The notes under the pieces were generated by a model, which was not told the DNA's origin, made no database searches, and was given only the letters and a program-made list of their open reading frames with translations. The position numbers and the translations under genes are program-made. Of a stretch of DNA of 64,000 bases, positions 55,933-64,000 are shown in pieces (the first letter of the stretch is position 1; each line of letters starts with the position of its first letter). Source of the stretch: Salinivibrio sp. ES.052 (GTDB taxonomy: Bacteria; Pseudomonadota; Gammaproteobacteria; Enterobacterales; Vibrionaceae). The stretch is taken from contig NZ_FSRI01000001.1 of assembly GCF_900141775.1 (NCBI RefSeq), positions 1,954,251-2,018,250 on the forward strand, in the 5' to 3' direction.

Positions 55933-58791
<2,859 letters not shown>

Positions 58792-58813
58792 CCCTCGGTT
58801 CATTTAGCCTATT

Positions 58814-58842
58814 AAGCCACACCCCTCGGTGTGGCTTTTTTT
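58814..58842 (+). terminator. Intrinsic terminator of valS
   Basis: Stem AAGCCACACC (58814-58823), loop CCTC, GGTGTGGCTT (58828-58837), followed by T. Confidence 0.92.
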
Positions 58843-59023
58843 ATGCCCAACACCAGCACAAATGGGCTTGGTCACTTTCTCAACGGTTGTTGTACCCAGC
58901 ACTGATCGCCCTTGATAGCCCTTCTCTATCTAAAAGATAGTGAGAACCGTTTTTATTTATCGACATGAGCAGTACATACTGTCATTGTTGATTAAACGCG
59001 TGTTGCCGAGAAGGAGCTACACC

Positions 59024-59407
59024 ATGAAGAAAACACTCAGTTTCGCCGCTATCCACTTTTCGATCGCCTTTACCGTCGCCTATGTGCTGACCGGCGATAT
59101 CATCCTAGGTAGCTTGATCGCCATGACCGAGCCCACGGTCAATACCGGTGCGTTTTATCTTCATGAAAAAGTGTGGCAGCTAAGTCGTCAGCCACGCCCT
59201 GCAATTAAAACCGCCAGTTTTGCCGTGATCCACTTTAACGTCGCCTTCTTGGTCGGCTATTTGATCAGTGGCGATTGGTTAGTCGGTGGCGCACTGGCGC
59301 TGGTTGAGCCGAGCATCAACACCTTGGCGTACTTCTTCCATGAAAAGGTGTGGCAGCGTCGCCATGCGATAAAACCCGCACCGGTGCACCTTGGCCACCA
59401 CCACTAA
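59024..59407 (+). CDS. Tandem DUF2061 membrane protein
   Basis: A 127-residue protein made of two copies of the DUF2061 domain. FAAIHFSIAFTVAYVLTGD (about 6-24) is matched by FAVIHFNVAFLVGYLISGD (about 67-85), and each half ends in a HEKVWQ motif. It should have two hydrophobic segments per copy and sit in the inner membrane; a His-rich tail ends it. The ATG at 59024 is set by AAGGAG eight bases upstream; a start at 58940 would add 28 unconserved residues. The function of DUF2061 is unknown. It is transcribed alone and ends at its own terminator. Confidence 0.85.
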   Translation: MKKTLSFAAIHFSIAFTVAYVLTGDIILGSLIAMTEPTVNTGAFYLHEKVWQLSRQPRPAIKTASFAVIHFNVAFLVGYLISGDWLVGGALALVEPSINTLAYFFHEKVWQRRHAIKPAPVHLGHHH

Positions 59408-59411
59408 AACA

Positions 59412-59443
59412 CATCGGCACATTGAAGGTGCCGATGGCTTTTT
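59412..59443 (+). terminator. Intrinsic terminator of the DUF2061 gene
   Basis: Stem CATCGGCAC (59412-59420) with GTGCCGATG (59428-59436), 7-nt loop, followed by GCTTTTT. Confidence 0.85.
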
Positions 59444-59468
59444 GCCCTTTGCGCTTGTTAGCGATCCA

Positions 59469-60470
59469 CTAGCGGGCGCTTTGAATGGCCTCAATACGTG
59501 CTTTCATACCAGGGTGCGTACTTAGCCACTCTAACTGTTCCCCAGAACTATTTGACTTACCGATCCGTTTGAGCATCGCCTTCATTGCAGTGGCATCACC
59601 ATAGATAGTGGTCATGTGTTGACGAGCATAGGCATCGGCTTCTCTCTCATCATCACGCGAGTAGCCTTTCGTCAGAAGAAAGACCCCACCCCCTAATAAA
59701 TTATCAGCTAAGCCAGTACTTTCGCCGGTCAACAAAGCAACAGTGGTCGATAGCAAGGTCGCGCGTATTAGTGACTTTAGCGAGTGCTGGTGTGCCAAAT
59801 GCCCAATCTCATGTAACAAGATGCTATCCAGTTGTTCTGGCGTGTCTGCTAACGCAACGAGTGCATCAGTGACAATAATGGTGCCATCACTGAGTGCTAA
59901 CGCATTCGCCGTTCCCTCCCACTGCCTAAACACAAGACTTGGCTTTAAAGGAAGCGCCGGCAATTGCTCAACCAAACCGTCAAATTGTTGCTGGACGCGA
60001 TCTTGAGTTTGCTCAGACAACTGAGTTGGCAACAGCATATGCTCATCCAAGGCATCCCGAGTTTTTTGACCAATTTGATTAGGTACTTCATCAGGGACCA
60101 GAGGCACGAGGCCACGACTGAGAGCAGGTAAACCATGGCTAAATAGCAGCACGACCAATAACACAACTACCAGCAAGCTTGCCAGAATCGCTAACTTATG
60201 TTGCTCCAACCAATGCAAGCGCTTTCCCTTCCGATAAGGCCCGAGTGCATCAGCAAGAGATTGACTCTCGTCGGGAATGAACGTATCCCTCTCAGGAAAG
60301 GTCAGTACCAACGGTAAGCTCCCCACCGGCACCGACACATCCATATCTGCAAGCGACCAGACATGTTCACCCTGCTCAGTGGTGACATGCACATGGCGAT
60401 CACCTAGCGTTAGCTCAGCATTGAGCTTTGTCGCACTATGGGGGGGATGATAGACACCTCGCCAACTCAT
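59469..60470 (-). CDS. Membrane-anchored M48 family metallopeptidase
   Basis: A zinc peptidase of the M48 (Ste24/HtpX/BepA-like) family, 333 residues. A cytoplasmic N-terminal domain of about 90 residues precedes one membrane segment (about 93-112), and the peptidase domain follows. The zinc motif is His220-Glu221-x-x-His224 (LLHEIGHLAHQHS), and Glu277 in DEREADAYA is the third ligand; STHPGMKARIEAI near the end is also typical. Its start overlaps the DUF898 gene stop by 4 bp, so the two are coupled. Its substrate is unknown; quality control of membrane or envelope proteins would suit the family. Confidence 0.88.
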   Translation of the reverse strand: MSWRGVYHPPHSATKLNAELTLGDRHVHVTTEQGEHVWSLADMDVSVPVGSLPLVLTFPERDTFIPDESQSLADALGPYRKGKRLHWLEQHKLAILASLLVVVLLVVLLFSHGLPALSRGLVPLVPDEVPNQIGQKTRDALDEHMLLPTQLSEQTQDRVQQQFDGLVEQLPALPLKPSLVFRQWEGTANALALSDGTIIVTDALVALADTPEQLDSILLHEIGHLAHQHSLKSLIRATLLSTTVALLTGESTGLADNLLGGGVFLLTKGYSRDDEREADAYARQHMTTIYGDATAMKAMLKRIGKSNSSGEQLEWLSTHPGMKARIEAIQSAR

Positions 60471-61597
60471 CCAATTCCCACTCCTAAGTCAAAGGCATTA
60501 GCTACTTCATCAGCCACAGCGTTGTTCTGAGTCACAGCTTCTCCCTCAGCTTGAAGCTGCGACAAATCACCGATAACGAAAGTCACATTGGCAAGATAGG
60601 CCGCGGTGCGCACTTTTACCCATGGCGTAGCAATACCAATGGTGACAATCAGCAACGCCAAGTTCGTCATGATCAAGTACAACAGACCACCCACTGTCAT
60701 ACGTGACGCCAATTGATAAACAGGGCTGTCGCCAACTTCTACTTGACCAAATAGGTAGTTGCGGATCCGTGTCCGAATAAAAGCGTTGATAATCATCACC
60801 GTCATCGCCAAGAATAAATAGGCACCGATAATTAACAGCGGAAAGCTCCCGCTGACTGGCGATGTGAAGACACCCACATCCGTCCCTATAACCATTAGTG
60901 CAATAATCCCTGCAATAGCAGAAAGGCCAAACCAAATGAGGCCTGATTGTAAATAGGTTTTAGCAAATATCTTCCAGCTTACCTCAGCCTTAAAATGATG
61001 GTTTCCATAGGTATAGTGATTGAGGTAATAACTTGCGACTTTCGATGCAATCCATGAATAAGCCAAGAAACCAAGAACAATGGCGAATAAAAGGAGCGTT
61101 ATCCCTAACCCAAAATGGCCAGCTTTGAGTTGTGACCCACCAAAGAATGACACTACACCCACACTGAGGTAGCACAGCACGGGTAGCCCCAAGAACACAA
61201 GGTAGGCTGATGCCAGTTTGCCAGTAAAGCCGAATCGAACATTACGATAGCTAGTCATGCTTGCATCAAAACGCGCATTGTTGCGAAGTAGCCATGGCAT
61301 CAAGCCCACACCTACCGCCAGCAGAGCCAGAGACGCAATAGGGAAAAACTGATTGGCAATCACCCAAACCACCACGCAAACAGCAGCGATAATACGACCA
61401 ATCAAAATCTGCTGAGGTAAAGCGTGATAACTAAATCGATCGCCTGCAATTTCCGTATTGCCATAAAAATACTGATTAGTTCGTACTTTCGCCCATGCTG
61501 AATAAATGCCTAATGTCGCACTAGACAACAGCATATTTACAATCCATATGCCGAAGAATTCTTTCCCTTGGCCATAGAATTTAACCTTGTTTTCCAT
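60467..61597 (-). CDS. DUF898 (YjgN-type) polytopic membrane protein
   Basis: A 376-residue inner-membrane protein of the DUF898/YjgN family, whose function is unknown. The N-terminal VKFYGQGKEFFGIWIVNMLL and the recurring pattern SxxTLGIYSAWAKVRTNQYFYGNT are typical, and similar TxGIATPWVKVRTxxYL occurs again near residue 325. About eight to ten membrane segments are seen. It is the first gene of a two-gene unit with the M48 peptidase (ATGA overlap). The 290 bp upstream are AT-rich and hold no gene. Confidence 0.87.
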   Translation of the reverse strand: MENKVKFYGQGKEFFGIWIVNMLLSSATLGIYSAWAKVRTNQYFYGNTEIAGDRFSYHALPQQILIGRIIAAVCVVVWVIANQFFPIASLALLAVGVGLMPWLLRNNARFDASMTSYRNVRFGFTGKLASAYLVFLGLPVLCYLSVGVVSFFGGSQLKAGHFGLGITLLLFAIVLGFLAYSWIASKVASYYLNHYTYGNHHFKAEVSWKIFAKTYLQSGLIWFGLSAIAGIIALMVIGTDVGVFTSPVSGSFPLLIIGAYLFLAMTVMIINAFIRTRIRNYLFGQVEVGDSPVYQLASRMTVGGLLYLIMTNLALLIVTIGIATPWVKVRTAAYLANVTFVIGDLSQLQAEGEAVTQNNAVADEVANAFDLGVGIG

Positions 61598-61890
61598 CCA
61601 CTTATCTCTTAATCAATAATAAATTGCGAATTAACATTGCAATGTCCAAAAAATCGGCTGAGATTATGCCACAGCCCTTCAATGTTTGGTCAAAAAAATG
61701 GACAAAAATACAACCAGTATCCCGCTAATGTTGCGGTAAAAAGTCACTTACAAAAATGAACTGATAATCATTGAAATAGCGCCTCATAACAAACGAGGAC
61801 GATAGCGTGGTGGCCTTCTGAGCGCGCCGAGTTGTGAAAGCGAACCCAGTGAGATAGATTGTCGATAAATCTATTATCCGGAGTGTATTA

Positions 61891-62421
61891 GTGGCTAAGG
61901 ATCGCCCCCAAAATTTACGCAAGGCTGACTCACACGCCCCTGCGTCCCTCGACGTGCGCTTAATTTTGCCGAGTGATAACCCTGCCATTGCCGATGTCAT
62001 TCGTCGCGTCTCTGCCGAGCATGATCTCAGCGCCGATGCCGGGTTTAGCGCAGCGGATCCCACCCTTGATACGCTTAGCGAGCAATATACTCACCCGCAC
62101 GCCGCCTATTGGGTAATTGAGGAAGACGGGATGATCCTCGGCGGTGGTGGCGTCGCCCCATTAGCGGGCCACGATAATGTGTGTGAACTACAGAAGATGT
62201 ACTTTCTGTCGGCATTACGCGGCAAAGGCATGGCGAGGCAGCTCGCCATTAAAGCCATGGAGACAGCGCGAGCGTGGGGCTATCAACGCTGCTATCTTGA
62301 GACCACCGCCAACCTCACCGCGGCGATTGCGCTGTATCAGTCACTCGGCTTTGTGCCGTGCGAGCGAATGGGCAACACCGGCCACGATAGCTGTGAAGTC
62401 ACCATGATAAAGGCACTGTAG
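61891..62421 (+). CDS. GNAT family N-acetyltransferase
   Basis: A 176-residue acetyltransferase with a GNAT domain. The acetyl-CoA loop is seen in LRGKGMARQLA (R-x-x-G-x-G/A type, about 110-120), preceded by the beta4 strand CELQKMYFL and followed by the motif B region CYLETTANLTAAIALYQSLGF. The start is GTG (61891), with GGAG ten bases upstream; the first 20 residues are poorly conserved. The acceptor substrate cannot be predicted. It converges with rraB across a terminator. Confidence 0.85.
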   Translation: MAKDRPQNLRKADSHAPASLDVRLILPSDNPAIADVIRRVSAEHDLSADAGFSAADPTLDTLSEQYTHPHAAYWVIEEDGMILGGGGVAPLAGHDNVCELQKMYFLSALRGKGMARQLAIKAMETARAWGYQRCYLETTANLTAAIALYQSLGFVPCERMGNTGHDSCEVTMIKAL

Positions 62422-62435
62422 CCCGCTCAAGGCAC

Positions 62436-62460
62436 AAAAAAAGCCACGTTTATGTGGCTT
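62436..62460 (-). terminator. Terminator of rraB (and GNAT gene)
   Basis: Stem AAGCCAC (62441-62447) with GTGGCTT (62454-62460), 6-nt loop; the complement of A 62436-62442 gives a T run on the minus strand, 34 bp after the rraB stop. Confidence 0.82.
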
Positions 62461-62493
62461 AATAAAGAATCCGTGATGTCGCGTGGTCGCGCG

Positions 62494-62874
62494 TTACTCG
62501 CCTTCTGGGTCTTCGTCTTCACCCGATTCGAAGTAGGTGCCCCAGCCGTCGTAATCAATGTTGTGCTTATCGGCTAACGCCACTAGCTTTTCGACTTGCT
62601 CATCAATGCGCTCAGCATTCAATGCCGTTTCCATCACCGCATCAAAGCAAACGATAGTGCCGCCCTCTTCCAGCTCAAGCTCTTCGGCCTCAGCCACTTC
62701 AAAGCCCATTTTAAAGGCTTCTACCGCCGCATCTTCCAGCGCTTCAAAGGTATCGGCACACAGGTGGTGCTCAATGGTATACAGCGCATCAGGATCACTG
62801 CCATCGGCGAGAAGCTCCTCGATGATCATCCGCGTTTCTTGGTGTTGTTGTTCGATAAGTTCAGCCTGTGACAT
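62494..62874 (-). CDS. rraB: Regulator of RNase E activity B
   Basis: RraB binds RNase E and inhibits RNA processing. The 126-residue acidic protein matches the family in [40 protein letters not shown] and YDGWGTYFE. The start at 62874 ([10 protein letters not shown]) follows GGAG nine bases upstream; an in-frame start at 62925 would add 17 unconserved residues. It is divergent from arcA, as in other vibrios. Confidence 0.95.
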
Positions 62875-63028
62875 AGACGCGACTCCAGAAAATGAATACG
62901 GGCGCAATATGGCACGGTTTAGCAAAAAATGCCACGTTCTATCATAGTGTCACTGATGAGAAAACCGCCAAGTTAATGAATTTTCTGTGAGCTTGCTAGT
63001 CCGGCGAGATTGTTAGTGATTTGTAACA

Positions 63029-63057
63029 TTGACCTCCCCCGAGAAGGTTGTCATTAT
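63029..63057 (+). promoter_or_regulatory. Candidate arcA promoter
   Basis: TTGACC (63029-63034), a 17-bp spacer and CATTAT (63052-63057) give 5 of 6 and 4 of 6 matches to sigma70 consensus. Transcription would start near 63064, leaving a leader of about 138 nt. Confidence 0.5.
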
Positions 63058-63076
63058 TCGAGCATCCAAGGAGGAG

Positions 63077-63121
63077 ATGAGACACGCCCACCCAGTGCAA
63101 ACGGCCTGCATTCCCACCTAA
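63077..63121 (+). CDS. Putative 14-residue leader peptide upstream of arcA
   Basis: ATG at 63077 opens a 14-codon frame, MRHAHPVQTACIPT, ending at TAA (63119-63121). An AAGGAGGAG Shine-Dalgarno (63068-63076) stands immediately before it, the strongest ribosome-binding sequence in the region, with short spacing. The second codon is the rare arginine codon AGA. It lies inside the arcA leader, after the candidate promoter and 80 bp before arcA. Its start codon is within the 5' arm of a predicted RNA helix, so translation and RNA folding would compete. I know of no homologue; translation is inferred from the ribosome-binding site only. Confidence 0.4.
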   Translation: MRHAHPVQTACIPT

Positions 63122-63166
63122 CCGGTGAGCACACGTCCCGTGTGTGCAAGACGCTGTTTGTCTCAT
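63077..63166 (+). promoter_or_regulatory. Structured RNA leader of arcA
   Basis: ATGAGACA (63077-63084) pairs perfectly with TGTCTCAT (63159-63166), closing a domain with an inner hairpin CACACG/CGTGTG (63130-63135, 63139-63144) and two weaker ones (TGCA/TGCA at 63096-63110, CACC/GGTG at 63115-63127). No T tract follows, so control through translation or Rho is more likely than an intrinsic terminator. Confidence 0.4.
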
Positions 63167-63201
63167 TACCTGGCCCGTATTAAGGAAAAAGAGGACCTAC
63201 C

Positions 63202-64000
63202 ATGAGTGAGTTTTACGTTGGATCCGAAGTTGGGCAACTGAAGCGCGTGCTGCTTCACCGCCCTGAACGAGCGTTGAACCACCTAACGCCATCTAACTGC
63301 CATGAGCTATTGTTTGATGATGTGCTGGCCGTTGAGCGCGCAGGCGAAGAGCATGACATGTTCGCCCGCACACTGACCGACCAAGGCGTACACGTTTACC
63401 TACTTCACGATTTACTGGTCGAAACCCTGGCCGTGCCAGAAGCCAAGCAATGGCTGCTCGACACCCAACTCAACCAATACCGCCTCGGTTATCAGTTTGC
63501 CAGTGATGTGCGCGCCTACATGACCGATATCGACCACAATACGCTCGCGGAGATCCTGCTAGGTGGCTTAAGCTACATCGACTTACCCGTGCAATCATCC
63601 TCGATGATGCAAGCCATGCACGATAAAACTGACTTCGTGATTGAACCACTGCCTAACCATTTGTTTACCCGCGACACCTCGTGCTGGGTGTATGGCGGCG
63701 TATCACTCAACCCCATGGCCAAGTCGGCACGCCAACGTGAAACCAATCACCTGCGCGCGATTTATCGCTGGCACCCTGAATTTGCCGATAGCCCATTTAT
63801 TAATTACCTCGGCGATGAAGTGCGTGACTACGACAACGCCATGATTGAAGGCGGCGATGTGCTGGTCATTGGCCGCGGCGCGGTATTAATTGGCATGTCC
63901 GAGCGCACCACCCCGCAAGGGGTTGAGCAGCTGGCGCGCAGCCTGCTGTTTAGTGGCCAAGCCAAAGAAGTGATTGCGGTACAACTGCCGAAAAATCGCT
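63202..64000 (+). CDS. arcA: Arginine deiminase, N-terminal part (truncated by window end)
   Basis: ArcA hydrolyses arginine to citrulline and ammonia, the first step of the arginine deiminase pathway that yields ATP without oxygen and raises pH. The frame is open from ATG 63202, set by GAGGA, to the end of the window (266 codons). It shows the family motifs [33 protein letters not shown] and [21 protein letters not shown]; the catalytic cysteine lies beyond the window. Genes for ornithine carbamoyltransferase and carbamate kinase would be expected next. Its leader carries a possible upstream peptide and RNA structure. Confidence 0.96.

Follow-up and report, generated by a model that had tools for sequence, protein, structure and literature searches.

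The arcA locus of Salinivibrio

The window analysed here comprises 64,000 nucleotides of the Salinivibrio sp. ES.052 genome and ends within arcA (63202–63999, plus strand, as are all leader features described below), whose ATG start codon lies at 63202. The gene encodes arginine deiminase (406 aa in full), runs beyond the window end and is complete in the locus L002. Its product scored 523.8 bits against the NCBIfam equivalog TIGR01078 (cut-off 489.1), which identifies it as a true arginine deiminase. Upstream of arcA, in the stretch 55933–63999, reside valS, a gene for a YjgN-like membrane protein, a GNAT acetyltransferase gene and rraB. This order resembles the E. coli arrangement valS-yjgN-yjgM-rraB-argI, with arcA located where argI stands. 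The next gene past arcA (L002:6657–7955) codes for a predicted protein of 432 aa, possibly exported, for which an NCBIfam search returned no match. Two arcA matches are present per genome in all eight Salinivibrio genomes. The second paralogue (L048; G000:C4:710188–711405), which is 71% identical, is found at another genomic site and adjoins a transporter-like gene, and its leader is unrelated to that of the rraB-linked arcA.

A conserved promoter upstream of arcA

The first-pass annotation of this DNA had proposed a promoter at 63029–63057. Sequence reading and a promoter search support a sigma70-type promoter at this position, TTGACC-17-(TGt)CATTAT, which represents the sole sigma70-like match of the region. 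Its hexamers TTGACC (63029–63034) and CATTAT (63052–63057) are separated by a 17-bp spacer, and a TG precedes CATTAT. The blocks TTGTAACATTGACCT and GAAGGTTGTCATTATTCGA around the two hexamers are almost invariant in eight Salinivibrio species, and by-eye comparison with the rraB-adjoining Vibrio orthologues revealed TTGCAT...TTGTCATAAAT with the same 19-base offset. The conserved hexamer blocks, together with the similarly spaced Vibrio element in front of rraB-linked arcA, make the promoter credible, and arcA transcription is predicted to start at ~63063–63065. A by-eye search for ArgR and FNR boxes gave no clear match.

A long-range helix with invariant arms

The other features named by the first-pass annotation, that is an AAGGAGG motif, a 14-codon ORF (63077–63121), an inner hairpin and an 8-bp repeat, are likewise all present in the sequence upstream of arcA. 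The 8-bp helix would be formed by the 5' arm AUGAGACA (63077–63084), which includes the ATG of the small ORF, and the 3' arm UGUCUCAU (63159–63166); ATGAGACA (63077–63084) is the exact reverse complement of TGTCTCAT (63159–63166). This stem can be lengthened by pairing of CCTGG at 63169–63173 (CCUGG in the RNA) with the 5' end at 63066–63071; the 5' part of this outer extension (63066–63074; CCA-GG or alternatively AGG) includes AAGGAGG (63068–63074). Inside the helix, a hairpin of the sequence GCACACG-UCC-CGUGUGU is located at 63129–63145; it is variable in sequence but kept in most leaders. The arcA ribosome-binding region (63174–63201), with its SD sequence AGAGG (63190–63194) positioned 7 nt before the ATG, lies outside the helix.

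To describe conservation, we used an alignment of seven distinct Salinivibrio leaders. Both helix arms are invariant in all seven (0/16 positions variable), as is the CCUGG of the outer stem, whereas 40 of the 70 intervening bases (63089–63158) vary; in the ribosome-binding region 3/28 positions are variable. Between 63077 and 63166, fully invariant stretches of eight columns occur only at 63077–63088 and 63159–63166 (hypergeometric probability 2e-5, computed without allowing for clustering of invariant columns). Perfect 8-bp inverted repeats are found in 18/318 137-nt leaders of the same genome when loops of 40–115 are considered and in 6/318 leaders for loops of 60–90 (these and the spacing statistics below cover ~395 kb of genome plus the window, with ORF-based, unannotated gene starts), so that the repeat by itself is only mildly unusual. 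Judging from the alignment, conservation of the arms, unlike the repeat itself, exceeds chance.

Folding predicted the helix in 7/7 leaders, one of them merely 84% identical, and the six core pairs reached pairing probabilities of ~0.75–1. Total folding energies of the Salinivibrio leaders indicated no greater stability than shuffled sequences (z –0.6 to +0.2); with z near 0, whole-leader energy was dropped as a sign of structure. Two-sided changes are seen at 2/32 consensus pairs of the leader; in the inner hairpin consensus, one pair changes on both sides (G-C to A-U) and one on a single side (C-G to U-G). At the helix itself covariation is absent because the arms never vary within Salinivibrio. 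Nevertheless, invariant arms, a variable interior and a fold predicted in all seven leaders suggest that the helix is probably an RNA under selection, even though invariant arms provide no covariation as proof. In this respect the annotated helix probably holds as an RNA structure.

Leaders of sister genera

Two related genera, g3 (probably Enterovibrio) and g7 (probably Grimontia), carry arcA at the orthologous place beside the GNAT gene and a divergent rraB. Like the Salinivibrio leader, the arcA leaders at this orthologous locus exhibit a stem, an inner hairpin and an open ribosome-binding region; unlike in layout, they share no sequence similarity with it. Among the g3 leaders, 8/11 fold better than shuffled sequences (z –1.8 to –5.3), and both g7 leaders have z values below –3. 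The stem predicted in g3 begins close to the predicted 5' end and finishes immediately before an A/U-rich ribosome-binding region. When the 40-nt 5' and 3' halves of g3 leaders were paired, native combinations had a mean of –24.6 kcal/mol vs –16.6 kcal/mol for swaps between subclades, and 15/184 swaps equalled native pairing. When the halves were shortened to 20 or 30 nt, native pairs exceeded swaps by less, and swaps matching native pairing were more frequent. As far as predicted pairing goes, these values suggest that, at this orthologous locus, the two leader halves of the sister genus co-evolve. The g3 leaders (L069–L079) resemble one another in their layout of stem plus inner hairpin, with fast sequence turnover, and may possibly constitute an undescribed RNA element of their own. 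No ORF with an SD sequence common to the g3 and g7 leaders was seen by eye. The rraB-linked arcA of Vibrio apparently has a short leader devoid of such a stem.

These data bear on the alternative that no RNA structure is involved. That is, AGGNNATGAGACA could represent a regulator's two DNA sites at a distance of 82 bp from each other; alternatively, the two arms could be conserved separately, one in the initial transcribed region and the other in the ribosome-binding region, and be complementary by accident. Indeed, both arms adjoin other conserved blocks, namely the promoter with the initial transcribed region and the ribosome-binding site, respectively. A comparable 8-bp inverted repeat is present in 2–6% of leaders, and arms that never vary supply no covariation as proof of RNA pairing. 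However, invariance ceases where the 3' arm ends on its inner side (base 63158, immediately inside it, is variable), the equally unvarying CCTGG also has its complement at the 5' end, and RNA-like co-evolution is suggested at the same position in the sister genus. We regard an explanation without RNA structure as doubtful, albeit one to be taken seriously.

The small ORF is probably incidental

The small ORF MRHAHPVQTACIPT (63077–63121; 14 codons plus TAA) begins within the 5' arm of the helix, and the geometric point of the first-pass annotation that a ribosome at its ATG would open the helix holds. AAGGAGG (63068–63074) sits 2 nt before the ATG at 63077, whereas the genome prefers about 4–7 nt between SD sequence and ATG. 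At ORF starts of the same genome, the distance to the ATG peaks at 4 nt for GGAGG, 5–6 nt for AGGAG and 6–7 nt for AAGGA. The respective distances at the small ORF, 2, 3 and 4 nt, are rare: among start-like ATGs of the genome, AAGGA at 4 nt was found in 3/67 cases and GGAGG at 2 nt in 0/~20.

All eight Salinivibrio species share the ATG, the first four codons and an SD-like sequence, the latter being AAGGAGG in 6/7 leaders and AAGGAAG in L009. Past MRHA the peptide drifts without a coding pattern in the seven leaders, with scattered residues kept. Summed over leaders, codon differences relative to the commonest haplotype comprise 14 non-synonymous changes (stop-to-sense counted; one in L007, two in L008, three in L009 and eight in L010) and two synonymous ones (in L003 and L010). 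In 3/7 leaders the stop codon has disappeared or changed position; these are L008, which corresponds to the S. costicola leader, L009 (S. socompensis) and L010 (S. proteolyticus). As the MRHA codons fall inside the 5' helix arm plus its 4-nt extension CGCC, their conservation needs no peptide. The first-pass annotation had named random drift of peptide and helix in an alignment of arcA leaders as an argument against its proposal; the peptide does drift, the helix arms do not.

Leaders of the S. costicola type (L008 and L044) lack the early stop, which extends their small ORF to 42 codons; its terminal TGA shares bases with the arcA ATG (ATGA). Beyond the stop at codon 15, this frame stays open in four further leaders as well. 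An open frame reaching the arcA start codon is probably due to chance; it could permit translational coupling.

Conservation of AAGGAGG (AAGGAAG in L009) and ATG, but not of the peptide, would fit an element that operates without peptide. Here, a 30S subunit would bind AAGGAGG near the 5' end and start poorly or never, and the open helix or the shielded end would set mRNA stability. Strong SD sequences, as in ompA and ermC, can stabilise mRNAs without productive translation (PMC7509114). In the Salinivibrio leader, however, the SD sequence overlaps the predicted outer stem and is weakened in L009, and we consider such an element unlikely. It is still less likely that the ribosome gates the leader, with selection acting on SD sequence, start codon and helix only, the peptide being irrelevant, and with initiation at a dummy start or 30S binding opening the 5' stem and thereby setting lifetime or translation of arcA mRNA.

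The first-pass annotation had suggested a leader-peptide switch, in which ribosomes on the 14-codon ORF hold the helix open and control of arcA would depend on arginine, ornithine or another amine. As with SpeFL and MdtU (PMC7815308), the small ORF of the Salinivibrio leader stands ahead of an arginine/polyamine-related gene and is preceded by an SD-like sequence; moreover, the conserved start of the ORF, including its first four codons, and the mutual exclusion of ribosome and helix would be compatible with a switch. In contrast, MdtU retains the C-terminal region of its peptide in at least 17 genera (PMC7815308), whereas the Salinivibrio peptide is not conserved, its stop and C-terminus included. 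Spacing of the SD sequence is poor and close to the genomic background, a search for an intrinsic terminator 3' of the helix found none, and the arcA SD sequence and ribosome-binding site lie outside the helix. The switch is therefore quite improbable, and the proposed sensing role for arginine, ornithine or another amine finds no support.

Distribution of the leader

A covariance model built on the leader detected one copy in each of 8/8 Salinivibrio genomes and none in 33 other genomes, and it matched no other arcA leader, those of g3 and g7 included. A pattern scan of species genomes recovered the leader in S. sharmensis, S. proteolyticus, S. costicola, S. siamensis and S. socompensis; a single Paenibacillus match was taken as chance. 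Comparison with Rfam gave no family match for window positions 60000–64000, with E values up to 1 considered, and none at the gathering score for 11 related loci. The library searched contained nothing relevant on arcA leaders, arginine deiminase attenuation or arginine deiminase of Salinivibrio. That the leader acts as a ligand-sensing RNA, for example a metabolite-binding riboswitch, is very improbable. A variable core between conserved ends might speak for it, but this core, in which one would look for a binding pocket, varies more than any other part, and the leader lacks an Rfam match, is restricted to the genus and shows no recognisable expression platform.

A 5'-proximal stem-loop leader

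Taken together, the arcA leader is conserved throughout the genus Salinivibrio and probably structured. Because the tiny peptide is not conserved, the leader resembles an ordinary RNA leader specific to the genus rather than a peptide-based arginine sensor. The arcA mRNA very probably carries at its start a conserved RNA stem into which an ATG happens to fall. The reading we favour, with a probability of roughly 45%, is that of a 5'-proximal stem-loop leader, which perhaps acts as an mRNA stabiliser. Accordingly worded as a model, arcA mRNA would start at ~63064, as we infer from the predicted promoter, and a long-range stem would form near its 5' end through pairing of 63066–63071 with 63169–63173 and then of 63077–63084 with 63159–63166. 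This stem would enclose the variable region carrying the inner hairpin, and the arcA ribosome-binding site (63174–63201) would stay mostly single-stranded outside of it. The ATG and the small ORF would be part of the 5' arm by accident or allow at most weak initiation. If the 5' stem folds in this manner in the cell, its most likely function would be to shield the mRNA 5' end from RppH and from RNase E entry while leaving the ribosome-binding site accessible, a role like that of the ompA and papA leaders.

These E. coli leaders are treated as 5'-terminal stem-loop mRNA stabilisers in two reviews (PMC3997798, PMC7509114, listing Emory 1992, Arnold 1998, Bricker 1999). Similar to them, the stem predicted for Salinivibrio lies directly at the predicted 5' end or close to it (63066 vs a predicted start at ~63064), and the ribosome-binding site is predicted to be single-stranded downstream of the stem. 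Unlike in ompA and papA, the Salinivibrio stem is long-range and its interior is large and variable. The stem accounts only in part for conservation of AAGGAGG in 6/7 leaders.

Thus, a candidate amine-sensing leader peptide is removed from the arcA locus and a probably structured leader takes its place. Since the same layout recurs with unrelated sequence in a sister genus, arcA leaders could provide a small model for how a 5' stem is maintained during sequence turnover.
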